Source: Candidatus Methylopumilus sp. (GTDB lineage: Bacteria; Pseudomonadota; Gammaproteobacteria; Burkholderiales; Burkholderiaceae_B). From it: a stretch of DNA of 54,717 nucleotides. A program made the position numbers and the translations under genes. Positions 8,908-35,640 of the stretch are shown piece after piece (the stretch's first letter is position 1; each line of letters begins with the position of its first letter). The notes below the pieces were generated by a model, which worked only from the letters and a program-made list of their open reading frames with translations, was not told the origin of the DNA and ran no database searches. The DNA is taken from NCBI GenBank assembly GCA_021738045.1, contig JAIPCU010000002.1, forward strand, positions 1-54,717, in the 5' to 3' direction.

Positions 8908-11034
8908 TCATGCTGCACGACCTTGGCGGGCCCCGAGAGTGATTCTTAGATTACCGTGAGCATCTAAGGTAAAGACATCGCCTGGACCAATCACCACAGT
9001 CGAGCCGGGTTGTTCAACCAACGCGGGACCCTCATAACGTTGCGCGGCGCGCAACTGCTCGAGCGACAGCACCGGTGTTTGTACATAGCCCTCGATATCC
9101 GGAAAAAATACCTGCCGCGAACGCTCGGCCTGTGCAGGCTGGTCGACGAGCGCTTGCGACGAACGCACCTCGGCATTGAGTGCCGCACTTGCAGAGGCCT
9201 CGACCCGCCAATTCACAGCTTCGACCCGCTGCCCGACCAGTTTTCCGCCAAAGCGGGCCGCATAAGCCTGGGCAAACGAAGCTTCGATGGTGCTTTGTTC
9301 AGATTGCACCAAGTGCGCAGGCAATTCAGTTTCGACTTCAAACCCTTGGCCAACGTAGCGCATATCCGCGCTACGACGAAACGTGATCCTCTCGCGCGCG
9401 ACACCCGCAGACGCTAATTCTTTGCTCAAGGCATCTTCCATTCCTTGCAGTAGCGCCTCAATCGCAGACCAGTCCATCTCGCTTAAGCGCGCATAACGCG
9501 TGCGAACCATGTCCATTTTCATTGGGGCAACCAGCAAGCCAAAGGCAGAAAACACACCTGCATTGGCTGGTACCAACAAATCTGAACAACCACTGCGACG
9601 TGCGACTTCGCGCGCGTGAATCGGGCCTGCGCCACCAAAGGCGAGCAAGGTATAACGTCGAATGTCGCGGCCATTTTCGACTGCATGAATTTTTGCGGCC
9701 ACTGCCATATGCTCGCAAACAATCCGATGAATCCCGTTGGCCGCTTCGACAATACTCAACCCTAAGGGGCGGGCGATATGTTCTTCGATCGCTTGCTCGG
9801 CTAAATCTAGACGCAAACTCACGGCACCGCTTAACGTACCTTGTGGATCTAAATAACCCAATACCAGCGCAGCATCGGTGACTGTGGGGCGAGTGCCGCC
9901 CAGACCATAACATGCAGGCCCCGGGCTTGACCCTGCGCTATGCGGGCCAACTTTCAACAAACCTGTCGTATCAACGTGAGCGATGCTGCCACCGCCGGCG
10001 CCGATCTCAATCAGGTCGATCGTAGGCAAACGCACCGGCAGCCCGCTGCCTTTTTTAAACCGTTGCTGACGCGCCGCTTCAAACTCTGTCGTAATCGACG
10101 GCCGCCCGTTCGAAATCAAACAGGCTTTGGCTGTGGTGCCGCCCATGTCAAAGGCCATCACGTTCGGGGTCTTTGACACCCGAGCAGAATGCGCCGCGCC
10201 CAAGGCACCCGCTGCCGGCCCCGACTCAAGCATACGAATCGGCATACGCTCGCCAAGCTCACGAGAAATGACACCACCGTTTGACTGCATGATGTGCAAA
10301 GTCGCGTTCAGCCCAATTGCCCGCAGGCCGTCTTCAATCGCCCCGAGGTAACTGCCAACCATGGGCATGACACAGGCGTTGAGCACAGTCGCGACGGTGC
10401 GCTCGTATTCACGGATTTCACCTAACACTTCAGACGATAGTGAAATCGACAACTCGGGCGCGATCCGTTGTGCGATCGCTTTCACACGCTGTTCGTGAGC
10501 GGGATTGGTAAAGCTATGTAAAAAGCATACGGCGATGGCACGCACCCCAGCATCGCGTAACTGACAGACGACACGCTCGACCTCTTGGTCTTGCATGGCA
10601 ATCACGACCTCACCTGCAGCATCGACACGTTCGCGGACTTCGGCCCGCAACGCGCGCGGTACGATCGCGTCAGGCCCTGGCGCCGTCAAGTCATACAAGT
10701 CGTAGCGCAACTCGCGTGCGATTTCGATCACATCACGAAACCCTTCGGTTGTGATTAAGCCGGTGACAGCACCCTTACGCTCAATCACAAGATTAGTGAC
10801 CGCAGTCGTGGCCCCCACCACGACGTCGGTGACTTGCGAAAGGGTCAGGCCGTGCTCTTTTAACAAAGCCAGTAAGCCCAAACGAATGGGCATCACGACA
10901 TCTGGCGCACCCGTCAGAACCTTTGAGGTGAAGATAGTGCCATCGGTACCGAGCAATACCAAGTCGGTAAAGGTGCCCCCGATATCAAAGGCAAAACGAT
11001 ACTGCTGGCCAGAAGCTAACGCCTGAGCACTCAT
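8908..11034 (-). CDS. hyuA: Hydantoinase A / oxoprolinase alpha family subunit
   Basis: The ASKHA-type nucleotide-binding motif FDIGGTFTDLVLL is at residues 16-28, and a second phosphate motif AFDMGGTTAKA lies mid-protein. The 'GAGGGSIAHVD' and LLAFGGAGPIHA segments are hallmarks of the hydantoinase/oxoprolinase/acetone carboxylase alpha family. At 708 residues it is of usual length. It starts 2 nt after the preA-like stop and is followed closely by hyuB, so the three should be co-translated. It supplies ATP hydrolysis for ring opening of a cyclic amide or imide. An acetone-carboxylase-like role is less likely because no gamma subunit is present. Confidence 0.92.
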   Translation of the reverse strand: MSAQALASGQQYRFAFDIGGTFTDLVLLGTDGTIFTSKVLTGAPDVVMPIRLGLLALLKEHGLTLSQVTDVVVGATTAVTNLVIERKGAVTGLITTEGFRDVIEIARELRYDLYDLTAPGPDAIVPRALRAEVRERVDAAGEVVIAMQDQEVERVVCQLRDAGVRAIAVCFLHSFTNPAHEQRVKAIAQRIAPELSISLSSEVLGEIREYERTVATVLNACVMPMVGSYLGAIEDGLRAIGLNATLHIMQSNGGVISRELGERMPIRMLESGPAAGALGAAHSARVSKTPNVMAFDMGGTTAKACLISNGRPSITTEFEAARQQRFKKGSGLPVRLPTIDLIEIGAGGGSIAHVDTTGLLKVGPHSAGSSPGPACYGLGGTRPTVTDAALVLGYLDPQGTLSGAVSLRLDLAEQAIEEHIARPLGLSIVEAANGIHRIVCEHMAVAAKIHAVENGRDIRRYTLLAFGGAGPIHAREVARRSGCSDLLVPANAGVFSAFGLLVAPMKMDMVRTRYARLSEMDWSAIEALLQGMEDALSKELASAGVARERITFRRSADMRYVGQGFEVETELPAHLVQSEQSTIEASFAQAYAARFGGKLVGQRVEAVNWRVEASASAALNAEVRSSQALVDQPAQAERSRQVFFPDIEGYVQTPVLSLEQLRAAQRYEGPALVEQPGSTVVIGPGDVFTLDAHGNLRITLGARQGRAA

Positions 11035-11036
11035 AC

Positions 11037-12353
11037 TTAGCCTTTAACTTTTGAGAGCTTGATACCACGCACAAAGCCGTTTTCGAATTTCTTAGACTCA
11101 AACACGTTATCTTTAATCGCGAAAAACTCTTGTAACGCGCGCTGCTCTTCGGTGGTCGTGTGCATGGTGGTGGCATCAAATGGGCAGGTTTGCGTGCACA
11201 TTTCACAACCGATACAGTTGGCATGTATCGATTCGACTGAGCCGTCACCCTGCGCCAAGGCATCGTAAAAACAAGTTTGAATACAAATCGTGCAGCTTGG
11301 ATTCTTACAGGCCTCAGAGGCAATTTCACTGTGCATGCGTGGCTTACGAAATTGCTCGCCATAATCCTTCACCGCTGCGCGCGACGCAATGCCCGTCATT
11401 GAGGCGATATCTGGATAGCCGTGGCTATCCATAAAGTTGTCAAGCCCCGTGATCATGCTGGGCAGGTACTTGATCCCCTTGAGCATCAGCACCGATCCCA
11501 CTTGAACGAGTGGCGCGCCCGTCATAATGAACTCGACGATATCTTTATGATCATAGATGCCGTTCGATCCGGTAATGGGCATGCCCAATTCTGTATAAAT
11601 ACGGTTGACCCAACGCAGCGACAAGGCTTTGGCCCAGACTCCACCAATCCCGGCAGGCCCGCCTAAGCGTGGCAAACCGGTTTCGATGTCAACAGAAAAA
11701 CCGGTGTAACGATTCGTAGCGGTCACACCCGCCGCACCCGCCTCTTTCACAGCGCGTGCAACATCCAACACGCGCGATTGATCAGGCGTGAGTTTGATCA
11801 CAACAGGGATCTTGACGGCCTCGCAGACGCGCGCTGTCACCTCGCGCGCAATCTCAGGCTCTTGCCCAATCATCGAGCCGCCATGCACACCAGGCATCAT
11901 GGCAGGATGCGGACAGCCGAAGTTAAGCTCAACCATGGGCAAGCCGCAATCTTCGATCGTGCGACAAATGTCGATCCAGCTTTGCATGGTTTTTCCGCCA
12001 GCACTACCGATCAAATGAGAGCCTTGATCTTGCGCGTACTTGTTCAAGTCTTTTAAGTGCGGAATCCATTCGCGCAGGGGCGTACTTGAGTATCCCGAAC
12101 GGCTGTAGAACACAAAATTCTTGTTGACCTTACCTTTAATCAGTTCATTTTTTTCATTCAAAATTGCGTACTTTGAATTTTGCGTCAAACGCGCCATGTC
12201 CTCGATGTCGGTGAGGGTTTTGATGATCATGCCACCCGCACCCGCATCGACACATTCGCGAATCACTTCGGGGCTATTGGTCGTTTCGAGCGACGCAATC
12301 ACCACCGGATTTTTAAATTTGACGCCACAAAAATCTAAAGAGAGATCAGCCAC
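11037..12353 (-). CDS. preA: PreA-like NAD-dependent dihydropyrimidine dehydrogenase subunit
   Basis: The N-terminal TIM barrel (DLSLDFCGVKFKNPVVIASL, 'VELNFGCPHPAMMPG', VVIKLTPDQ) is a dihydroorotate/dihydropyrimidine dehydrogenase FMN domain. It is followed by a two-[4Fe-4S] ferredoxin domain: CKNPSCTICIQTC near residue 350 and CIGCEMCTQTC near 385. The 438-residue length and order match PreA. E. coli PreA needs PreT to take electrons from NAD(P)H, and no preT is in the window. The start is GTG with AGGGG upstream. It heads the hyuAB operon, so it probably reduces the ring C=C bond of a pyrimidine-like or lactam intermediate. The first cluster spacing (C-x4-C) is slightly unusual. Confidence 0.85.
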   Translation of the reverse strand: MADLSLDFCGVKFKNPVVIASLETTNSPEVIRECVDAGAGGMIIKTLTDIEDMARLTQNSKYAILNEKNELIKGKVNKNFVFYSRSGYSSTPLREWIPHLKDLNKYAQDQGSHLIGSAGGKTMQSWIDICRTIEDCGLPMVELNFGCPHPAMMPGVHGGSMIGQEPEIAREVTARVCEAVKIPVVIKLTPDQSRVLDVARAVKEAGAAGVTATNRYTGFSVDIETGLPRLGGPAGIGGVWAKALSLRWVNRIYTELGMPITGSNGIYDHKDIVEFIMTGAPLVQVGSVLMLKGIKYLPSMITGLDNFMDSHGYPDIASMTGIASRAAVKDYGEQFRKPRMHSEIASEACKNPSCTICIQTCFYDALAQGDGSVESIHANCIGCEMCTQTCPFDATTMHTTTEEQRALQEFFAIKDNVFESKKFENGFVRGIKLSKVKG

Positions 12354-24638: not shown

Positions 24639-25103
24639 TTATAAAAATCGATCTAGGATACGGCGGCTATTCTTATCAAGTGCCTGCATATCAGGCAAGA
24701 TAAACCTGAGGCCATGACTATCAGTAATGATCAGCGTCGAACCAGTTAACCGTCGGATATCTTCTTCGCCCTTGAGGATCAGCTTTGTGGCACCCCGATC
24801 AGTCACGATATCCCAAGTGCTGGGCGTTGAAAGCGTTGACACACTGACAATCCGTTGAATCGTCGGCATCATCTCGCGCAAAGCGATCTCTTCGGTGATC
24901 AACTCACGCATCTCTTGGGGTAATGCACTGAGCTCATCTACCCAAGCGATTTCTTTGCCTTCTGTACTCATGAACGCCACAAACTGCTCGGGTGCTTGCA
25001 ACGGAAACGCACGCACCGGCACGACCCCTTCAAAGACACGTCCGTCTTGAAGCGTGACCAACAGGCGACCCGCTTGATTACGCGTTAACAAAAAATCAGA
25101 CAT
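24639..25103 (-). CDS. DUF1854 protein associated with cyanophycin metabolism
   Basis: 'FLLTRNQAGRLLVTLQDGRVFEGVVPVRAFP' and 'RIVSVSTLSTPSTWDIVTDRG' are typical of the DUF1854 family. This family is named for its association with cyanophycin genes, but its function is not established. The track start at 25169 lies inside the ABC gene; the ATG at 25103 has AAGGGG upstream and gives 154 residues, overlapping the ABC stop by 8 bp. It should be co-translated with the ABC protein and may act with it. No signal peptide or membrane segment is visible. Confidence 0.85.
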   Translation of the reverse strand: MSDFLLTRNQAGRLLVTLQDGRVFEGVVPVRAFPLQAPEQFVAFMSTEGKEIAWVDELSALPQEMRELITEEIALREMMPTIQRIVSVSTLSTPSTWDIVTDRGATKLILKGEEDIRRLTGSTLIITDSHGLRFILPDMQALDKNSRRILDRFL

Positions 25104-27459
25104 CTGCGGCCCCTTGTCGATTATCGGGGGCAGCGGCTGGCAAAGGAGCAGGCTTGGCGTCTGCAACAACCTTGCTGGCAGAGGTTTCGAGCGGGCTCTG
25201 GATCACAACACCTTCAACTCCGGTCAGGCGCGACTGAGCCTGGTACAAATCGTGGTACGCGCCGCCGCGAGCCAGTAAGTCGTCATGGTTACCAATCTCG
25301 ACAATCTCGCCACGATCAAGCACGACCAAACGATCGGCCTTGCGCAAGGTACTCAAGCGATGTGCGATCGCAATTGTGGTGCGACCTTGAATCAGGTTAT
25401 CCAGAGCTTCTTGGATCTCCATCTCGGTGGTGGTGTCAACCGATGAGGTCGCTTCATCCAAAATGAGAATCCGTGGATCAATCAGTAGCGCGCGCGCGAT
25501 TGAGATACGTTGACGCTCGCCGCCAGACAGCGCTTGACCTCGTTCGCCGACGAGTGAATCGTATCCTTGAGGCAGTCGCAAAATAAACTCGTGCGCACGC
25601 GCTGCACGCGCCGCCGCGACAATCTCTGAACGCGTTGCCTCAGGTTTACCGTAGGCGATGTTTTCAGCAATCGTGCCGAAAAACAAGAACGGCTCTTGCA
25701 ACACCAAACCAATGTTTCGCCTGAACGAGGCAAGCGAGTAGGCTCGGATATCAACGCCGTCCACTTTGATCCCACCCTCGGTGACATCATAAAAACGGCA
25801 AATCATATTCACCAGCGAACTCTTGCCCGAACCGCTGTGACCCACTAAGCCGATCATCTCGCCCGCGCCGATACTTAAATTGACGTTGCGCAATACCGTT
25901 CTGCTGCCGTAGCGAAAGCCAACATTGCTCAACTCAATACGCCCTTCTACACGCTCAAGCGGCACGGGACGCTGTGCATCGGGCACGCTCGACACGTGAT
26001 CCAAAATATCAAAAATACGCTTGGCTCCAGCAGCCGCTTGCTGCGTGTGCGACACAATGCGGCTCATTGAATCTAGTCGCGTGTAAAACCGGCCGATATA
26101 AGCCAAAAAGGCTGCCAGTACGCCAACCGTGATGGTGCTACTTGCCACCTGTGAAATACCGAAAATCCAAACCACCAGCAAGCCAATTTCAGTTAAGAAA
26201 GTCACAGAGGGCGCAAAGAGTGCCCACACTTTATTGATACGATCGTTGACCGCGAGATAACGGTCATTCGCTTCGCGAAACCGCGCGACTTCGCGGTGCT
26301 CTTGCGCAAACGCTTTGACCACCCGAATACCCGGAATCGTGTCAGCCAGCACGTTGGTCAGTTCGCTCCAAGAGCGATCAACCTTTTCAAAACCAAAGCG
26401 CAAACGATGGCGCACCAAGTGAATCATCCAGATAATCACTGGTAACGGGATGAGCGTGGTCAGCGCCAACCATGGATCAATCGAGATCAAGATACATGCC
26501 GTCATCACGATCATCAGCACGTCGTTGGCAAAATCAAGCAAATGCAACGACAAAAAGATATTAATGCGATCGGTTTCACTGCCAATGCGCGCCATCAAGT
26601 CACCGGTGCGCTTACCGCCAAAGTATTGCAATGACAGCGTTTGCAGGTGACTGAAGGTGGCGGTGCGCAGATCAGCGCCGATTCGTTCGCTCACCCAAGC
26701 AAGCAAGTAGGTACGGGCCCACCCAAGCAGCCAAGCCAACAACCCCGCGACCACCAGCCCAGTTAAGTACAACGCCACCAAATCGTAGTTAATCGGCTTG
26801 CCATTTTGAAACGGAATCAAAATGTCATCCATCAACGGCATGGTCAGATACGGTGGCACCAGTGTTGCCGCCGTCGAGAGCAAGGTCAGAATAAAGCCGA
26901 CAATCAGAGGCAATTTGTAAGGCCGAGCAAAACGCGCCAAACGCAACAGCGCCCAAGTATCACTCGGCCCCGCCTGCTCAGTGTCACAAACAGCACACTC
27001 ATCCTGGTCAAGCGCGAAAGGCGTACCGCAGGTTGGGCAAGAGGCAGCAGTGCTCTGCTGTGTATGCAGAGGGTCTGCTAGTTTTTGCTGAAGTTGAGTG
27101 AAGAGCTCGATCAGGCGACCCACCGCAGGCGACATGCCAAGCGTGTGACGCCAGACACTTAAGCGCAGCGCCCCTTCAAAGAGCTCGATGGTACCGACCC
27201 CCGCGTGGTCGCGATGCTGCAATAGTTGCGTGGTGGTAATCGGGAAAACAGCCCAGTCATGCGCCATCGACTCGCGCGATACCAATCGACTGGGCGTCAA
27301 AAACAAGATGCCCGCAGAGAATTGCAAATTCGAATCGAGATCGGGTTCGAGCCAGGCTAAGACTTTTTCGCCCGGTTCTAGCAAAGACTTGATCGCAACG
27401 GCCCAAGCCGTCGGCAGCGTTGACTCAAACGCAGGGTCGGCGGTTGGAAGGGGTGTCAT
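25096..27459 (-). CDS. ABC exporter-type protein associated with cyanophycin metabolism
   Basis: The 787-residue half-transporter has three parts. Residues 1-140 are an unassigned N-terminal region, ending in a zinc-ribbon-like CPTCGTPFALDQDECAVCD near 143-161. A six-helix exporter membrane domain covers about 175-450. The ABC ATPase has Walker A GHSGSGKSS near 543, signature LSGGERQR near 644 and Walker B ILILDEATSSVD near 668. The C-terminal tail is Ala/Pro-rich. It is divergent from the cyanophycin synthetase genes and coupled to DUF1854. Substrate unknown; it should act in the inner membrane as a homodimer. Confidence 0.9.
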   Translation of the reverse strand: MTPLPTADPAFESTLPTAWAVAIKSLLEPGEKVLAWLEPDLDSNLQFSAGILFLTPSRLVSRESMAHDWAVFPITTTQLLQHRDHAGVGTIELFEGALRLSVWRHTLGMSPAVGRLIELFTQLQQKLADPLHTQQSTAASCPTCGTPFALDQDECAVCDTEQAGPSDTWALLRLARFARPYKLPLIVGFILTLLSTAATLVPPYLTMPLMDDILIPFQNGKPINYDLVALYLTGLVVAGLLAWLLGWARTYLLAWVSERIGADLRTATFSHLQTLSLQYFGGKRTGDLMARIGSETDRINIFLSLHLLDFANDVLMIVMTACILISIDPWLALTTLIPLPVIIWMIHLVRHRLRFGFEKVDRSWSELTNVLADTIPGIRVVKAFAQEHREVARFREANDRYLAVNDRINKVWALFAPSVTFLTEIGLLVVWIFGISQVASSTITVGVLAAFLAYIGRFYTRLDSMSRIVSHTQQAAAGAKRIFDILDHVSSVPDAQRPVPLERVEGRIELSNVGFRYGSRTVLRNVNLSIGAGEMIGLVGHSGSGKSSLVNMICRFYDVTEGGIKVDGVDIRAYSLASFRRNIGLVLQEPFLFFGTIAENIAYGKPEATRSEIVAAARAARAHEFILRLPQGYDSLVGERGQALSGGERQRISIARALLIDPRILILDEATSSVDTTTEMEIQEALDNLIQGRTTIAIAHRLSTLRKADRLVVLDRGEIVEIGNHDDLLARGGAYHDLYQAQSRLTGVEGVVIQSPLETSASKVVADAKPAPLPAAAPDNRQGAADV

Positions 27460-27684
27460 CTAGGCGGCACGCGTTGCCCATCAGTCGGCACGAACAACTG
27501 CAGCGGGAAGCGCTTCATTAGGGGCCAACAAGTTCGATTGAAAAATTCGATTGAAGTGAATCTTGCAAGTATAACGACCAACGCCCACCGAAACTACTCT
27601 TAGCCTCGTAAGTTGCTCTTGTTTGGCGATTTTGCTGCGATAATGATGGATTCAAGGTATTGTTGCGACGCAACAAATGATGTA
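27460..27684. promoter_or_regulatory. Divergent intergenic region between the ABC exporter and cphA'
   Basis: This spacer must hold promoters for both directions. A TATACT box for the minus strand is at 27573-27568. A GATAAT box for the plus strand is at 27639-27644, with only poorly spaced upstream TTG boxes. TTCGATTGAA is repeated at 27533 and 27546. TTGTTGCGACGCAACAA (27660-27676) is a perfect 7-bp inverted repeat with a 3-nt centre just before the cphA' start. Promoter boxes are weak calls; the repeats are plain. Confidence 0.45.
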
Positions 27685-29859
27685 ATGACAACTAAAAGCA
27701 AGATCGTGTTCGAGCAAATCGTCAATTTGCTAGGGCCCAACAGTTGGACCTATCGCCCAGTGCTCGAGGCATGGGTAGATTTTGCCGCGATTGAAAACCA
27801 CCCGCCAACGCACAAGACCGCCGCTTTAGCGCGATTACTCGCCTGGGTGCCCGAGTTGGCACAATCGCATCTAAACCCCGAAGCCTCGCCCGGTACGCAA
27901 GGCACTCTAGCCGCGGGGCTCTGGTCGCCTCAGATACTCGAGCATCTGACCCTCACCTTGCAGTCGCTAGCAAATATGCCTGGTGGCTTTGGTGATACAC
28001 ATCAAACCTCTGAACCAACCCTGTATAAAGTCGTCGTACGCGCGTGGCACCCAAGCGTGACCACCTACGCACTGCACGCCGCTCGCGACTTGCTTGAAGC
28101 GGCTTTTAACGATGCTCAGGCTAACGTCGACGCCACGATCGCGCGTCTGCAAGACCTGCGCCACAAGCATTGCCTGGGCCCCAGCACCGCCTGCATCGTC
28201 GACGCCGCCGATGACCGCGATATCCCGGCCATCAGACTCAATACTGGCAACCTATTACAACTTGGCTACGGCATCAATCAACGGCGTATCTGGACAGCCG
28301 AAACCGATCGCACCGGAGCCATCGCCGAAACCATCTCGCGTGATAAAGATCTCACGAAATCTTTACTGCAAGCCTGCGGCGTCCCTGTCCCCACCGGTCA
28401 GGCTGTCGACTCCGCCACTGAGGCTTGGGAGGCAGCGCAAGAGCTCGGCGTTCCAGTTGTCGTTAAACCGAGCGACGGCAATCATGGGCGCGGGGTCTTC
28501 ACCAATCTCAGTACGCAGCAAGAAATCGAACAAGCCTACAACGTTGCCGTTCAAGAAGGCTCGGGCGTGTTGGTTGAACGCTTTATTTTGGGACAAGAGC
28601 ATCGCCTACTGGTGGTGGGTGGCAAATTGATTGCCGCAGCCAAGGGTGAATATGCACAAGTGACGGGCGACGGCGTCAGTTCGATCAAAACGCTAATTGA
28701 TACGCAACTCAACGCCGATCCGCGTCGTGGTCACGAAGAAGACCAACCATTAAATTATGTGCGACTCGACTCGGCGGCCCAACTAGAAATTGCCCGACAA
28801 GGCTATACACCGCAAACGATTTTGTCACTGGGGCAACAGGCTGTCATTCAACGCAACGGCAACGTTGCGGTTGACTGCACCGAGCTGGTGCATCCCGATG
28901 TCGCCGCCCTCGCCTGCACGGCAGCACGCATCGTGGGGTTAGATATCGCCGGGATCGATCTCGTGGCACTCGATATTTCAAAGCCCTTACAACAACAGGG
29001 CGGTGCAATTGTTGAAGTCAATGCGGGGCCTGGCTTGCTGATGCACTTAAAACCTGCCACTGGCACACCGCGTCAAGTTGGGCGCGATATCGTCGCGCAC
29101 AGTTTTGCGCTTGGTGACATGGCGCGCGTACCAGTGATCGGCATCACAGGCTCGCAAGGCAAAACCATGACGGGTAAGCTGCTGTTTCGCCTGTTGACAC
29201 TACATGGCTGGCGCTGTGGCCTCGCCAGCAGTGCCGGGCTATTTGTAGACAAACGACTCTTGCACAGCGGTGACTGCGCCAATTTTGAAAATGCGCGACT
29301 GGTTCTCATGAACCGTGAAGTGCAAACCGCAATTATTGAAAATGGTGCACACCAGTTACTCAGCGAAGGCCTAGCCTACGAGCGCTGCGAGGTTGGCATC
29401 ATCACCCAGATTGACTGGGCAGAAGACCTAGACGCCTACAAAATTCACAGTCACACCGAACGCGTCAAGGTGTACCGCACCCAGATGGACGTCATCCTGC
29501 CCAAAGGCATGGCGGTGCTCAATGCCGACGACCCACACATTGTTGAGCTTGCGCGCCATTGCGATGGCCAAATCACTTGGCTCTGTCTAGCGGGCGACGC
29601 CCCACTGATCCAAGCGCACCTTGCGCAAGGTCAGCGTGTTGTGTCGCTGATCGACGGTAAGCTGGCCTTGCTAGAGGGCACGCGCCAATACGTGCTTTGC
29701 TCAATCGACGCGATCGGCATCACCAAACTCGGGACGGATACGACGCAAACCTATAACGCGCTGGCCGCCGCTGCGGCGGCCTGGGCGCTTGGGCTGACCC
29801 CGGATTTAATTCACGCTGGCTTACTCAGTTTTGATCCGAATACTGCAGTGCCTCAATAA
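27685..29859 (+). CDS. cphA': Cyanophycin synthetase paralogue (CphA2/CphA'-like) with degenerate Mur domain
   Basis: The N-terminal CphA domain (IVNLLGPNSWTYRPVLEAWV) and the ATP-grasp domain are intact: VVVKPSDGNHGRGV, VLVERFILGQEHRLLVV and IVEVNAGPGLLMHL. The Mur-ligase part keeps a P-loop GSQGKTMTGK (near residue 489). It has lost other conserved stretches seen in the next gene: ETARGG is replaced by ENGAHQ and TNIGVGDHLG by TQIDWAEDLD. The last roughly 110 residues, including DYGHNPDA, are missing. This resembles CphA2 proteins, in which only the ATP-grasp site works. I chose the ATG at 27685 (724 aa) because earlier starts are TTG or precede the family start; no strong SD is seen. Confidence 0.85.
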   Translation: MTTKSKIVFEQIVNLLGPNSWTYRPVLEAWVDFAAIENHPPTHKTAALARLLAWVPELAQSHLNPEASPGTQGTLAAGLWSPQILEHLTLTLQSLANMPGGFGDTHQTSEPTLYKVVVRAWHPSVTTYALHAARDLLEAAFNDAQANVDATIARLQDLRHKHCLGPSTACIVDAADDRDIPAIRLNTGNLLQLGYGINQRRIWTAETDRTGAIAETISRDKDLTKSLLQACGVPVPTGQAVDSATEAWEAAQELGVPVVVKPSDGNHGRGVFTNLSTQQEIEQAYNVAVQEGSGVLVERFILGQEHRLLVVGGKLIAAAKGEYAQVTGDGVSSIKTLIDTQLNADPRRGHEEDQPLNYVRLDSAAQLEIARQGYTPQTILSLGQQAVIQRNGNVAVDCTELVHPDVAALACTAARIVGLDIAGIDLVALDISKPLQQQGGAIVEVNAGPGLLMHLKPATGTPRQVGRDIVAHSFALGDMARVPVIGITGSQGKTMTGKLLFRLLTLHGWRCGLASSAGLFVDKRLLHSGDCANFENARLVLMNREVQTAIIENGAHQLLSEGLAYERCEVGIITQIDWAEDLDAYKIHSHTERVKVYRTQMDVILPKGMAVLNADDPHIVELARHCDGQITWLCLAGDAPLIQAHLAQGQRVVSLIDGKLALLEGTRQYVLCSIDAIGITKLGTDTTQTYNALAAAAAAWALGLTPDLIHAGLLSFDPNTAVPQ

Positions 29860-29874
29860 TCACAGGAAATTGTT

Positions 29875-32451
29875 ATGGATGTCTCTCGTATTCGTGCCCT
29901 CCGCGGGCCAAATTTATGGACACGGTTAACTGCCATCGAGGCAGTCGTGACCTGCACCGATCGCGAGGCCAACTTAGACCAGTTGCCAGAATTTTTGACG
30001 CAGCTGCGTGCCCGCTTTCCTGATGTCAAATCTTTGCGCCCCTTCGGTCACAAAGACCCAATCACGATGGCGCATGCACTCGAGGCAGTGAGCTTAGGCT
30101 TACAGGCTGCTGCGGGCTGCCCCGTAGCCTTTGGTCAAACAATGTCAACGCCCGAACACGGTGTCTTTCAAATCGTCTTTCAGTACACCGAAGAACCCGT
30201 TGGTAGACTAGCATTGGATCTGGCCCAGACTTTATGCGTGGCGGCATTGAATAACGAGCCGTTTGACATTACTCAGGCACTATCGCGTTTGCGTGAACTC
30301 GACGAAGACGTTCGACTCGGACCCAGCACAGGTTCAATCGTCAACGCTGCGACCGCGCGCGGGATTCCCTATCGTCGACTCACTGAAGGCAGTTTGGTGC
30401 AGTTTGGTTGGGGCAGTAAACAACAGCGTATTCAAGCCGCAGAAACTGGCAACACAAGCGCCATCGCTGAAGCGATTGCACAAGATAAAGATCTGACCAA
30501 AATGTTGCTCGAGGCAGCCGGCGTGCCGGTACCACGTGGTTTTGTCGTCGAAGATGAAAATGAAGGCTGGGACATCGCCAATAAAATTGGCTTACCCGTG
30601 GTGGTCAAGCCGCGCGACGGCAATCAAGGCAAAGGGGTCGCCGTCAATATCGAAACCCGCGAGCAATTAAACGCAGCGTTCAAGGTCGCCTCAGAGATCA
30701 GCCGCGATGTGATTGTTGAGCAATATATTCCTGGTCACGACTTTAGAATGTTGGTGATTGGCAATCAACTTGTAGCCGCGGCACGACGCGATCCTCCTAC
30801 CGTCATTGGTGATGGCAAACACACCGTGGCGCAACTCGTCGATCAGGTCAACGCAGACCCACTGCGCGGAGACGGCCACGCCACTGCATTAACCAAAATC
30901 CGCTTTGATGAGATTGCTTTGGCCACACTCGCCACGCAAGGGCTCGACGCTCAATCCATTCCTGAAAAAGGCAAGCGCGTCTTGCTGCGAAATAATGCCA
31001 ACTTAAGCACTGGCGGCAGCGCAACCGATGTCACCGACGAGGTGCATCCCGAACTTGCGGCTCGCATGGTCACTGCTGCCCAAATGGTCGGCTTAGATAT
31101 CGCGGGTGTCGATCTCGTTGCCGAAACCATCTTAAAACCGATGGAAGAGCAGCGTGCCGGCATTGTCGAAATCAACGCGGCACCGGGCTTGCGTATGCAT
31201 TTAAGCCCCTCGTTTGGCAAACCACGCCAAGTCGGCGAAGCGATTATTTCAAGCATGTTTGCTGCAGGCGACAACGCGCGCATACCCGTTGTCGCAGTCA
31301 CTGGCACCAATGGCAAAACGACTACCGTACGTCTAACGTCGCATCTGCTGCGTACCAGCGGAAAACGCGTTGGCATGACCAATTCAGATGGCGTGTATAT
31401 TGAGCAACGCTGCATCGACACGGGCGACTGTAGTGGGCCACGCAGTGCGCGCAACGTACTGCTGCATCCTGATGTTGACGCCGCTGTGTTTGAAACGGCC
31501 AGAGGCGGAATTTTGCGCGAGGGCTTAGCCTTTGACCGCTGCGATGTCGCGATTGTCACCAATATCGGCGTGGGTGACCATCTCGGAATGAACTTTATCA
31601 ATACCGTTGACACACTTGCCCTGCTCAAGCGAGTCATCGTTCAAAACGTGGCACCCCACGGTACAGCGGTGCTCAACGCCGCCGATCCCATGGTGGCAAA
31701 AATGGCAGAGGCCTGCCCCGGCACGGTTATCTTTTTTAGCCTTGACCGCCTTCATCCGGTTCTGAACACTCATCGAGCTCAAGGTAAACGTGTGGTGTTC
31801 TGCGACAACGGCCAACTCGTTTGCAGCGAGGCAGGGCAAGACCATTCAATCGCGTTAAGTGCCATCCCCCTGACGCGCAACGGTACGATTAGTTTTCAAA
31901 TCGAAAATGCCATGGCGTCGGTCGCTGCGGCCTGGGCCCTGGGGCTTAGCTGGAAAACAATCGAAGCCGGCATGGCCACCTTCGTCAACGACGCCCAGAC
32001 CGCCCCCGGGCGCTTTAACGTCTTTGACTATCGCGGCGGCACGATCATTGCCGACTACGGTCATAACCCCGATGCTGTTCAAGCGCTTGTGCAGGCGATT
32101 GAAAGCATGCCCGCCACCAAGCGCACTGTCGTCATTAGTGGAGCGGGCGATCGACGCGACGAAGATATCTCTCGCCAAACCGAGATTTTGGGCGAAATTT
32201 TTGACGAAGCGATTTTGTACCAAGATCAGTGCCAACGCGGACGCGAGGATGGTGAGGTCTTAGCGTTACTGCAATTAGGCTTAAAACATGTCTCGCGCAC
32301 AAAAGAGATTCAAGAGATTCGCGGCGAGTTTCTTGCCATTGACACTGCGTTAGCCAAACTGAAACCGGGTCAGCTTTGCCTGATTTTGATTGATCAAGTG
32401 CAAGAAGCGCTTGATCACATCGCTAAGAGAATCGCCGAAGACCAGAATTAA
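29875..32451 (+). CDS. cphA: Cyanophycin synthetase
   Basis: The 858-residue protein has the full CphA1 plan: N domain from VSRIRALRGPNLWTRLTAIEAVV; ATP-grasp domain with VVVKPRDGNQGKGV and GIVEINAAPGLRMHL; and a Mur-ligase-like domain with P-loop GTNGKTTTVRL near residue 475, VFETARGGILREGL, TNIGVGDHLG and DYGHNPDAV near 727. It makes multi-L-arginyl-poly-aspartate from Asp and Arg using ATP, a nitrogen and carbon reserve. The start is 15 nt after cphA' with an AGGAAA ribosome site, so the two form an operon. Cyanophycinase is not in the window. Confidence 0.95.
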   Translation: MDVSRIRALRGPNLWTRLTAIEAVVTCTDREANLDQLPEFLTQLRARFPDVKSLRPFGHKDPITMAHALEAVSLGLQAAAGCPVAFGQTMSTPEHGVFQIVFQYTEEPVGRLALDLAQTLCVAALNNEPFDITQALSRLRELDEDVRLGPSTGSIVNAATARGIPYRRLTEGSLVQFGWGSKQQRIQAAETGNTSAIAEAIAQDKDLTKMLLEAAGVPVPRGFVVEDENEGWDIANKIGLPVVVKPRDGNQGKGVAVNIETREQLNAAFKVASEISRDVIVEQYIPGHDFRMLVIGNQLVAAARRDPPTVIGDGKHTVAQLVDQVNADPLRGDGHATALTKIRFDEIALATLATQGLDAQSIPEKGKRVLLRNNANLSTGGSATDVTDEVHPELAARMVTAAQMVGLDIAGVDLVAETILKPMEEQRAGIVEINAAPGLRMHLSPSFGKPRQVGEAIISSMFAAGDNARIPVVAVTGTNGKTTTVRLTSHLLRTSGKRVGMTNSDGVYIEQRCIDTGDCSGPRSARNVLLHPDVDAAVFETARGGILREGLAFDRCDVAIVTNIGVGDHLGMNFINTVDTLALLKRVIVQNVAPHGTAVLNAADPMVAKMAEACPGTVIFFSLDRLHPVLNTHRAQGKRVVFCDNGQLVCSEAGQDHSIALSAIPLTRNGTISFQIENAMASVAAAWALGLSWKTIEAGMATFVNDAQTAPGRFNVFDYRGGTIIADYGHNPDAVQALVQAIESMPATKRTVVISGAGDRRDEDISRQTEILGEIFDEAILYQDQCQRGREDGEVLALLQLGLKHVSRTKEIQEIRGEFLAIDTALAKLKPGQLCLILIDQVQEALDHIAKRIAEDQN

Positions 32452-32486
32452 AAAACCACGCTCTCTTCGTATTGAAGAGAGCGTGG
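32451..32486 (-). terminator. Terminator hairpin between cphA and phaR
   Basis: A perfect 13-bp stem CCACGCTCTCTTC / GAAGAGAGCGTGG with a GTATT loop sits just after the cphA stop. Read on the minus strand it is followed by TTTTTT, a textbook intrinsic terminator for phaR transcripts. On the plus strand it lacks a T-tract but may still end or protect cphA mRNA. Confidence 0.85.
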
Positions 32487-32600
32487 CGGGATGACCTGTT
32501 CAAACCTCGTTGTCTAAAGAGAACTGCTAGCCACTGTCACGAGAAGCAGTGAAGCGTAGGCTCGCTTGCTCGTCAAGTTTGCGCGCTAAAAAAGAAGCTT

Positions 32601-33170
32601 TTAAGATTTCGCTTTGTCGCCAGCACCACCAGCAGCGAACGGAAACGCCGGAAACATCGCACGAGCCTGCTCTTGCAGTTTGTCTTGCATCTGCCCGAAC
32701 AAATCCTTGCTTTGCTCAACGTATGAATTCATCATATTTTGCATGACCGGTGTTTGGCCACTCATAAATTGAGTCCAAGCCTCGGGCGACAATTGGGTAT
32801 TCCCAAACAAACCTTTCGATTGATCTGCTAGGCGATCTTGCACTTCCATAAACGTCTGGATATTTTTTTCGAGGTAAGTACCCATCATCCCTTGCATGGC
32901 ATGACCATAAAATCGAATGACCTGAGCCAGCATGACCGACGAAAACATCGGCATACCACCGCTCTCTTCTTCGAGAATAATTTGGAGCAAAATACTACGC
33001 GTAAGATCTTCTGCAGACTTGGCATCTACGACTTTAAAGATCTCACTTTTAAGCACTAACTGTTTAACATCTGCCAACGTGATGTAGGTGCTAGTTTGCG
33101 TGTCGTACAGACGACGATTAGGATATTTTTTTATCAGACGTACGGATGCGTCTGTTGCCGCTTCGGTCAT
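32601..33170 (-). CDS. phaR: Polyhydroxyalkanoate synthesis regulator PhaR
   Basis: LIKKYPNRRLYDTQTSTYITLADVKQ near the N-terminus is the PHB/PHA accumulation regulator DNA-binding domain. It is followed by the PHB_acc region (MFSSVMLAQVIRFYGHAMQGMMG) and a Gln/Met-rich tail. PhaR represses phasin and its own gene and binds PHB granules. The track start 33182 is a TTG; the ATG at 33170 has GGAGG 6 nt upstream, giving 189 residues. It is the last gene of phaC-phbB-phaR, and a 9-bp-stem hairpin lies in front of it. Confidence 0.93.
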   Translation of the reverse strand: MTEAATDASVRLIKKYPNRRLYDTQTSTYITLADVKQLVLKSEIFKVVDAKSAEDLTRSILLQIILEEESGGMPMFSSVMLAQVIRFYGHAMQGMMGTYLEKNIQTFMEVQDRLADQSKGLFGNTQLSPEAWTQFMSGQTPVMQNMMNSYVEQSKDLFGQMQDKLQEQARAMFPAFPFAAGGAGDKAKS

Positions 33171-33206
33171 GCATGCCTCCAAAAATAACTATGTCATAAC
33201 AAACGA

Positions 33207-33233
33207 TAGGTTGTTAGCAGCGCCAACAACCTA
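33207..33233 (-). promoter_or_regulatory. Inverted repeat in the phbB-phaR spacer
   Basis: TAGGTTGTT / AACAACCTA form a perfect 9-bp stem around a 9-nt centre between the phbB stop and the phaR start. On the minus strand a weakly T-rich stretch (ATCGTTTGTTATG) follows. It could be a partial terminator that lowers phaR expression or a PhaR autoregulatory site; sequence alone does not decide. Confidence 0.5.
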
Positions 33234-33238
33234 CGGCC

Positions 33239-33976
33239 TTAACCCATGTGCAAACCACCGTTCAACGAAAAATCAGCACCGGTTGAAAACCCTGATTCTT
33301 CTGATGCAATCCACGCCACAATCGAGGCAATTTCTTCAGGACGCCCAAGTCGCTTCACCGGAATCGTTGCGACAATTTTTTCAAGAACTTCGGGGCGTAT
33401 TGCACGCACCATATCGGTGCCAATATAACCGGGCGACACCGTATTGACTGTCACGCCTTTACTGGCAACCTCTTGCGCAAGCGACATCGAAAAACCATGG
33501 ATCGCCGCTTTCGCGGTGGCGTAATTCGATTGCCCAAACTGACCTTTTTGCCCGTTAACCGAACTGATATTGATGATGCGACCAAAACCGCGATCGACCA
33601 TGGCTTCAATCACTTGTTTCGTCACGTTAAACAAACTATTCAGATTCGTATCCATCACGGCTCGCCAGTCGTCGGCCGACATTTTACGAAATACGCCATC
33701 GCGTGTGATCCCAGCATTGTTCACCAGAATATCGACTGGGCCATGCTCAGCCACGACCGCTTTAAACGCAGCTTCACATGAGTTCCAGTCTGAGACATTA
33801 CCGACAGAGGCATAAAACTTATAGCCGAGTGCTGCTTGCTCGGCCAACCATTGTCCGTAGTCACGGCTCGGGCCACAACCCGCAACAACCGTCATTCCTT
33901 CTTTTGCCAACCGCTGACAAATAGCAGTCCCGATCCCACCCATTCCACCGGTTACATACGCTAGCTTTGCACTCAT
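33239..33976 (-). CDS. phbB: Acetoacetyl-CoA reductase
   Basis: This short-chain dehydrogenase has the cofactor motif TGGMGGIG near residue 8, NNAG mid-protein (ILVNNAGITRDG), catalytic Ser in NISSVNGQKGQFGQ and Tyr/Lys in SNYATAK. The GQKGQFGQ stretch is typical of PhaB. It reduces acetoacetyl-CoA to (R)-3-hydroxybutyryl-CoA with NADPH in PHB synthesis. AAGGAG precedes the ATG at 33976 (the track's 34015 is upstream), giving 245 residues. It lies 41 bp after phaC. The beta-ketothiolase phaA is not in the window. Confidence 0.94.
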   Translation of the reverse strand: MSAKLAYVTGGMGGIGTAICQRLAKEGMTVVAGCGPSRDYGQWLAEQAALGYKFYASVGNVSDWNSCEAAFKAVVAEHGPVDILVNNAGITRDGVFRKMSADDWRAVMDTNLNSLFNVTKQVIEAMVDRGFGRIINISSVNGQKGQFGQSNYATAKAAIHGFSMSLAQEVASKGVTVNTVSPGYIGTDMVRAIRPEVLEKIVATIPVKRLGRPEEIASIVAWIASEESGFSTGADFSLNGGLHMG

Positions 33977-34017
33977 CCTCATCTCCTTTTGCCGCGCTGA
34001 CACGGCATTGACCAACG

Positions 34018-35640
34018 CTAGACTGCTCGAACCTTGACGTAAGACCCCGGAGCTTTTTCAAGCACGGGATATGATTGATTACCCAATGTTTTTGAAGCTT
34101 TGACACGCTTGCCGCTGTGAGTTGCCAACCAGTCGCCCCAGTCACGCCACCAACTGCCAGGATACTCAGTCGCTTGCGCAAACCATTTTTCAGCAGCTTG
34201 ACCCTTGACAGGTTTGTCGGCAACCCAATAGTTGCGCTTGTTTTTTGCTGGTGGATTAATCACCCCAGCGATATGCCCCGAGGCACCTAGCACAAAGCGA
34301 TTAGGGCCAGGAAAAATTTCCGTCGAGGCAAACGCCGAGTGCCACGGCACAATGTGATCTTCGCGCGAACCGTAGAGATAAGTCGGCACTTTGACTTTAC
34401 GCAAATCGATTGGCACGCCGCAGCTTGTCAGCGCATTGGGTTGGCTTAATTTATTTTCGAGATAAGTATTTCGAAAATACCACGTGAAAAATGGCCCAGG
34501 CAAATTCGTGCTGTCGCCGTTCCAGAACAATAAATCGAAGGCAACCGGCGACTCGCCCTTTAAATAATTGGATACGACGTAATTCCAGACCAACTCGTTG
34601 GGTCGCAGAAATGAAAACGTGGTGCCAAGCTCGCGCGCCGACATCAAACCACCGTGTCCGATTTGTTGCTCGCGCAGGCTGGCATGCTGTTCATCGACAA
34701 ACACCCCAAGCGGGCCCGTTTCTTTAAAGTCAACCATTGAGGTCAATAGCGTTAAAGACGCCACTGGACTTTGCCCCTTGGCCGCGGCGACAGCCAAGCC
34801 TGCGGCAAGCATGGTGCCACCCACACAAAACCCCAACGCATTGATCTTGCTTTGCCCAGAAATCTCTTGCGTCACGTTAAGCGCGGTCAGGATTCCCTCT
34901 TGAAGGTAATCATCCCAGGTCGCTTTTTCGATGCCATCCGTATCTTCTGCAAGCGGATTGCGCCAGGACATCAAGTACACGGTAAAGCCTTGTGCGACAG
35001 CATCACGTACAAACGAATTTTCGGGTTGCAGATCGAGAATGTAAAACTTATTGATGCAGGGCGGCACCAACAGAATCGGACGCTGATACACCGTCGGTGT
35101 TGTAGGCGAATATTGTATTAATTGAAAAAACTTGTTTTGAAAAACAACCGACCCGGCAGAGGTGGCCACGTTTTCACCCACGACAAATTTACTTTCGTCA
35201 CTTTGTGAAATACGCCCTTTTTGAATATCACCGATTAGATTCGAGACGCCCGCAACGAGAGTTTCGCCGCCAGACTCGAGCAGCGCGGCTTGTGCATCAG
35301 GATTGGTCGCCAAAAAATTAGCCGGCGACATCGCGTCGATCCACTGCATCACTGAAAAATGTAACCGGTCTTTGAGCTCTGGCGAGGCGTCTGAAACATC
35401 GACCAACTTTTGCATGGCGTTTGCCGACAAAAGGTATAGGTGAGCCATGAGTAAATGCGGCGGGCTCGAGGCCCAAGCCGGCGCGGCAAACCGACGGTCT
35501 TTAATCGCCGGCAAATGCCCTTGAGTCGCCTCTTGGGATAATCGTTGCCAAGCTTGCATGAAGTCGTGTTGGACCGACGCGAGCGCCTCTTTTGAAATCC
35601 CGGGCGGTGGCGCCAACCCCTCTGGAAACGGAAAATTCAC
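34018..35640 (-). CDS. phaC: Class I poly(3-hydroxyalkanoate) synthase
   Basis: The 540-residue protein has the lipase-like box GFCVGGTM with catalytic Cys near residue 270, Asp in SREDHIVPW near 430 and His in GASGHIAGVINPP near 455. 'LLVPPCINKFYILDLQPENS' is diagnostic of class I PhaC. It polymerises (R)-3-hydroxybutyryl-CoA on cytoplasmic granules. It is slightly short relative to the Cupriavidus enzyme (about 590 aa) because of a shorter N-terminal region. AAAGG precedes the ATG. It heads phaC-phbB-phaR. Confidence 0.95.
   Translation of the reverse strand: MNFPFPEGLAPPPGISKEALASVQHDFMQAWQRLSQEATQGHLPAIKDRRFAAPAWASSPPHLLMAHLYLLSANAMQKLVDVSDASPELKDRLHFSVMQWIDAMSPANFLATNPDAQAALLESGGETLVAGVSNLIGDIQKGRISQSDESKFVVGENVATSAGSVVFQNKFFQLIQYSPTTPTVYQRPILLVPPCINKFYILDLQPENSFVRDAVAQGFTVYLMSWRNPLAEDTDGIEKATWDDYLQEGILTALNVTQEISGQSKINALGFCVGGTMLAAGLAVAAAKGQSPVASLTLLTSMVDFKETGPLGVFVDEQHASLREQQIGHGGLMSARELGTTFSFLRPNELVWNYVVSNYLKGESPVAFDLLFWNGDSTNLPGPFFTWYFRNTYLENKLSQPNALTSCGVPIDLRKVKVPTYLYGSREDHIVPWHSAFASTEIFPGPNRFVLGASGHIAGVINPPAKNKRNYWVADKPVKGQAAEKWFAQATEYPGSWWRDWGDWLATHSGKRVKASKTLGNQSYPVLEKAPGSYVKVRAV

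Follow-up and report, generated by a model that had tools for sequence, protein, structure and literature searches.

Why should a cyanophycin synthetase gene be preceded by a second, shortened copy of itself? The question is raised by a 54,717-nucleotide stretch of Candidatus Methylopumilus sp. DNA (contig JAIPCU010000002.1; hereafter, the window), in which an open frame at 27613-29859 on the plus strand, with a likely ATG at 27685, encodes a CphA homologue that we call CphA'; cphA itself starts 15 nt after the end of cphA'. The original prediction described a protein with an intact ATP-grasp domain and a decayed, truncated Mur-ligase domain, which might polymerise β-Asp-Arg dipeptides by analogy with CphA2 or support CphA by extending one half-reaction. 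We propose, with a probability of roughly 0.5, that CphA' may prime and join chains as one subunit of a cyanophycin synthetase split over two genes. The features of the locus are as follows:

24639..25103, minus strand: DUF1854 protein (NF052234), likely start at 25103, overlapping the end of the ABC gene
25096..27459, minus strand: ABC exporter-type gene, divergent, matching NF052233 'cyanophycin metabolism-associated ABC transporter' (1330.7 bits, cut-off 880)
27685..29859, plus strand: cphA', with a degenerate N-domain zinc site (L-Q-E-H in place of C59-H79-E82-H83), an ATP-grasp domain with a replaced Asp pocket, an Mcore remnant and no Mlid
29875..32451, plus strand: cphA, with the N-domain peptidase motif lost, an ATP-grasp domain with an intact Asp pocket but Gln267 and Lys269, and an intact Mur-ligase domain

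Ahead of its transmembrane domain, the ABC protein is extended at the N terminus by ~170 residues that include a zinc-ribbon-like CPTC...CAVC stretch. After the cphA operon, on the opposite strand (32601-35640, minus), lie PhaR (NCBIfam) and frames resembling PHA reductase and PHA synthase, a neighbourhood retained in the closest relatives only (3-4 of 62 loci). Between cphA and phaR, a 14-pair stem and the T run after it (32455-32487) resemble a minus-strand terminator; scans for promoters and terminators yielded counts at the level of chance.

Active sites of CphA' and CphA

CphA' is 42% identical to the adjacent CphA and passes the subfamily model NF010623 'cyanophycin synthetase' (918.6 bits, cut-off 877), but falls below the CphA1 equivalog TIGR02068 (654.5 bits, cut-off 850), which the adjacent CphA exceeds (994.9 bits). 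In the Mur half, the predicted loss of ETARGG and TNIGVGDHLG is borne out (ENGAHQ and TQIDWAEDLD). The entire Mlid including DYGHNPDA is missing, as had also been predicted, with a shortfall of ~145 residues relative to the end of CphA rather than ~110. The P-loop is altered from GTNGKTTT to GSQGKTMT with its Lys and Thr still in place (K499 and T500; SuCphA1 numbering is used throughout), E558 is retained, and D585 and H586 have become E and D; most relatives are without the P-loop Lys (K499) and Thr.

Within the ATP-grasp half, the residues for ATP binding and chain activation (K220, K261, H267, R309, D431, E450 and N452) are all retained in the window's CphA' and nearly invariant across the family. 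Among these, H267 and R309 stabilise the acyl phosphate in SuCphA1 and TeCphA1 (PMC9262961, PMC9427784). R323, N394, S396 and R458 hold the incoming aspartate in TeCphA1 (PMC9427784), and of this subsite only N394 is kept: R323 is G, the S396-TGG loop is deleted and R458 is L, accompanied by H353→E. Alignment therefore shows unaltered ATP and chain-activation residues and altered acceptor residues, and the description 'intact ATP-grasp' applies to ATP binding and donor activation but not to the Asp-acceptor subsite. With two arginines gone and E353 gained, the net charge of the acceptor columns, which were chosen post hoc, is -1.65 in CphA', compared with +2.1 in CphA and +2.2 in canonical enzymes. 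The pocket changes are fixed new residues (G323, E353, L458), not random ones. We dropped the loss of E215 as a sign of a changed donor, given that E215 varies among canonical enzymes, and set aside an AlphaFold model built from 18 sequences (mean pLDDT, 60.5).

The two genes have complementary active sites. Across 119 loci in which both were nearly complete (sequences truncated at contig ends and a few divergent ones were listed separately), the Asp pocket was altered in 119/119 CphA' (R323→G or S, S396-TGG deleted, R458→L or Q) and intact in 119/119 CphA, with R323, N394, S396 and R458 all retained by the window's CphA. The reverse holds for the N-domain motif Cx19HxxEH (C59, H79, E82, H83), which in Synechocystis CphA1 (SuCphA1) is the primer-making zinc peptidase (PMC9262961): no CphA has it intact, whereas 114 CphA' do, the remaining five CphA' being the window's copy and its nearest kin. 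Position 267 is His in CphA' with Gln in CphA in 115 of the 119 pairs. That the window's CphA itself lacks the peptidase motif and has Gln for His267 had been missed by the original prediction. Taking 24 sequences that have the canonical G pattern, of which 21 are solo enzymes, and the positions conserved in at least 90% of them, we found that CphA differs consistently at just three (H267→Q, R269→K and D620→A) and that its Mur domain is canonical at nearly every conserved position; the N-domain motif is not on this list because three of the 24 reference sequences are without it. We found no description of reciprocal active sites in the open-access literature.

We did not take Gln267 to prove that the G domain of CphA is dead, since CphA1s linked to cyanophycinase also carry it and the CphA Asp pocket is invariant. 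In one genus (L258 in G080; L239-L241 and L252-L255 in G274, G300 and G369), the genome has, in addition to the pair, another cluster that contains two CphA1 genes, both full-length and of the Gln267 type. In G080 these genes adjoin a cyanophycinase and an asparaginase-like frame, and Gln267 is thus not confined to the pair.

Pairing, selection and descent

A genome scan recovered 78 loci, nearly all in beta-proteobacterial records and at ~50% identity beyond the closest relatives, with the partner cphA directly downstream in 72. Matches occurred in 147 of 399 Burkholderiales genomes, nearly all of which had exactly two; the eight with a single match comprised seven canonical enzymes and one CphA' in a fragmented assembly (G054). 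In a phylum-wide sample, 24 Burkholderiales positives had two matches and 13 others had one, barring one Mur-like fragment. CphA and CphA' distances were strongly correlated (Mantel r, 0.90). Overall, the cyanophycin enzyme is split over two adjacent genes in most sampled Burkholderiales with cyanophycin genes.

Loss of the Mur motifs and of the C-terminal lid is what a decaying cphA duplicate would look like, and 'decayed' was the term used in the original prediction. This term does not survive comparison with close relatives: omega is 0.03-0.15 in every domain, the Mcore remnant included, and all CphA' domains are under purifying selection. The same form is also conserved in tandem with cphA down to ~50% identity across Burkholderiales families, and its pocket has moved to fixed new residues. 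We consider decay scarcely credible.

Kinship is also an unlikely source of the resemblance to CphA2. The domain losses of CphA' (no Mlid and a degenerate Mcore P-loop) resemble those of a genuine CphA2, whether orthologous to the cyanobacterial dipeptide polymerase or acquired from it, yet CphA' scores 409 bits against the CphA1 structure 7lg5 and only 194 and 178 against the CphA2-like 8fxh and 7ta5, a gap of ~215 bits. In a G-domain tree of CphA', CphA and canonical CphA1, built with the diagnostic columns removed, all CphA' fall on one side of a branch (value, 100) as sister to CphA, and the two together separate from canonical CphA1 (98), with two cyanophycinase-linked Gln267 enzymes on the canonical side. 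Moreover, the Cx19HxxEH motif of the CphA' family is absent from the CphA2 N domain. An origin from CphA2 is accordingly very improbable. The suggested CphA2 analogy remains plausible as to function, with an acidic pocket unsuited to free Asp, but not as to kinship.

In two full-length CphA', the G pocket is altered although every Mur motif is present; the G-domain change is therefore independent of the loss of the Mur half, which it probably preceded. One further locus (L257 in G536, 9440-11782) combines the ABC and DUF1854 genes with a single CphA that reaches the contig end and has an intact zinc motif, Asp pocket and Mur motifs, and Gln267. It is possibly a pre-split form, in a bin from outside the class that is alphaproteobacterial-placed and has 8% contamination.

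The zinc peptidase site and the orphan gene

Among CphA' with a readable N domain, Cx19HxxEH is intact in 133/138, whereas the window's copy is degenerate (LQEH). We had considered that this copy itself keeps the N-domain hydrolase lost from CphA, and rejected the idea on its zinc ligands, L-Q-E-H; the site is kept by the family and by an orphan CphA'-like gene elsewhere in the same genome. This orphan (G000:C27:117-2279, locus L178) has an intact zinc motif and no adjacent cphA, and is followed downstream by genes for malate synthase G and an M20 peptidase.

In the window's genus, most genomes have a further CphA'-like gene that is not next to cphA. Where there is an orphan (18 genomes, in one of them deduced from fragments), the in-locus CphA' is missing at least one zinc ligand, and every orphan with a readable N domain has CHEH; where there is none (three genomes), the CphA' at the locus retains CHEH. 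A Fisher test of orphan presence against zinc-site loss gives p = 0.0008, with the caveat that related genomes do not supply independent cases. Within the window's clade, omega is 0.10-0.15 for the N domain and near 0.04 for the G domain, the closest pair excepted. Because either the in-locus copy or the orphan has the peptidase site, and in view of these values, it seems that a peptidase-competent CphA' is needed somewhere in the genome and that the window's copy is retained for its ATP-grasp domain.

Function of the pair and relation to known systems

We infer from these conservation patterns that CphA' and CphA work together and that the ATP-grasp domain of CphA' is active, CphA' probably being a conserved helper half that makes starter chains. 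On this account, an ancestral duplication would have given CphA and CphA'. CphA would add Asp with its G domain and then Arg with its M domain, without making primers; CphA' would have given up Arg addition in most copies, and its family would have retained the zinc endopeptidase of the N domain, which generates primers by cutting cyanophycin. The CphA' ATP-grasp domain, which cannot bind Asp in the established manner, would still activate the chain C terminus and join it to an acceptor other than free Asp, most likely either a β-Asp-Arg dipeptide or a short oligomer of cyanophycin, through its amino end. The acidic, enlarged acceptor site would suit the guanidinium of β-Asp-Arg or of the oligomer's first unit, and a CphA2-like acceptor of this kind would thus fit as a candidate. 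In the window's genome, cutting appears to have moved to the orphan, leaving the in-window copy with the ATP-grasp job. Support for CphA through one half-reaction, as originally suggested, thereby holds in outline: CphA' is encoded in tandem with CphA, conserves the catalytic residues of the ATP-grasp domain and is without the Mur half. There is an experimental precedent, in which the SuCphA1 N domain, or G-dead or M-dead SuCphA1, supplied in trans makes the primer-dependent TmCphA1 primer-independent (PMC9262961). The Burkholderiales pair resembles this experiment because CphA is without the peptidase and CphA' has the peptidase but not the Mur half.

NF052233 flanks cphA' in 62/62 loci and NF052234 (DUF1854) in 61/62, while other neighbours recur in 3-4 of 62. 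The ABC gene is present in 48/48 pair genomes, in 0/21 genomes with a solo canonical CphA1 and in bin G536. Cyanophycinase above cut-off was found in 4/45 pair genomes compared with 18/18 solo canonical genomes, among which G054, G536 and G784 are not counted; one of the four, G080, is the genome whose additional CphA1 cluster is linked to cyanophycinase. The window's genome, 82% complete, yielded no cyanophycinase and no asparaginase of the IaaA type. Adjacent to solo canonical CphA1 genes (L231-L236, L248-L251 and L229; G065, G209, G265, G284 and G916, also G739), we observed a separate protein matching only the CphA1 M (Mur) domain, at 32-39% identity and with K499/D585/H586-type motifs where visible.

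Three points count against the priming account: most pair genomes are without cyanophycinase, so there is no clear source of free β-Asp-Arg; the Gln267 of CphA is unaccounted for, as H267A abolishes SuCphA1 activity, even if CphA1s linked to cyanophycinase can also have Gln at this position; and the ABC exporter is given no role. The last would find a place if the pair made a cyanophycin-like but different polymer or oligomer. The Burkholderiales 'CphA1' pairs would then form a separate, obligate two-protein system in which CphA' adds or joins a non-Asp unit, CphA adds Asp and Arg, and the peptide is moved out by the linked putative ABC exporter rather than kept as a store digested by cyanophycinase. 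The linkage of the ABC and DUF1854 genes, the rarity of cyanophycinase and the replaced CphA' Asp pocket all favour such a product, but Asp-Arg units are expected from the canonical Mur domain of CphA, and the retained peptidase site is of the type found in a cyanophycin-cutting enzyme; we regard this alternative as possible, though doubtful. It is unlikely that CphA' is instead a catalytically idle structural or allosteric subunit, forming mixed oligomers with CphA through the Gcore dimer and using its ATP-grasp domain only to bind nucleotide or polymer. The G sites of TeCphA1 are indeed shared across that dimer, with E215 coming from the other protomer (PMC9427784), and CphA and CphA' have derived residues in common in the Gcore-dimer segment (for example, E205 and E214); CphA' has also lost the Asp pocket and the Mur site. 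However, seven near-invariant ATP and chain-activating residues exceed what a scaffold needs, the pocket did not change at random, and the family retains its peptidase site.

Among characterized enzymes, CphA1 (SuCphA1, 7lg5 and 7txv; TeCphA1, 7wac) shares with CphA' the N-G-M architecture up to Mcore, the ATP and chain-activating residues of the G domain and, in most CphA', Cx19HxxEH. It differs in that CphA' has replaced the Asp pocket, has lost the Mur active site and Mlid and, assemblies permitting, always stands beside a CphA with reciprocal losses. CphA2, the cyanobacterial β-Asp-Arg polymerase (7ta5, 8fxh), likewise has a single remaining ligase domain, no Mlid, an Mcore P-loop that in CphA' is altered and probably non-functional, and possibly the same dipeptide acceptor, whereas CphA' is very probably of separate descent, has the N-domain motif in its family, is in tandem with cphA and occurs without cyanophycinase. 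The TmCphA1 and SuCphA1 mixture also has one protein that elongates and another that supplies the primer-cutting site, but it was assembled in the laboratory from two organisms, whereas the Burkholderiales system would be a natural gene pair, as read from sequence.

Tandem genes, the ABC gene and the missing cyanophycinase were already known from two reports and from NCBIfam names. The activated-sludge Group 1 cluster has 'two copies of cphA' that are adjacent, with an ABC transporter and no cyanophycinase (PMC10687191), and Sideroxydans has two adjacent genes, CphA1 and CphA2, again without cyanophycinase (PMC5178258). Both tandems are very probably the same system as the CphA'/CphA pair; in the parts consulted, each is handled as a pair of synthetases, without mention of divided active sites.

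A published survey counted 903 beta-proteobacterial genomes as encoding CphA1 and found cyanophycinase in only 2.8% (PMC10206079), an unexplained gap. In our sample, Burkholderiales with cphA but no cyanophycinase nearly always have the split enzyme, with reciprocal sites and the ABC-exporter gene, and those with a solo canonical CphA1 have cyanophycinase. The gap can thereby be put to the test on a single pair of proteins and what they make. Should the priming role prove true, CphA' would also offer a naturally occurring helper that makes primers when cyanophycin is produced in other hosts.
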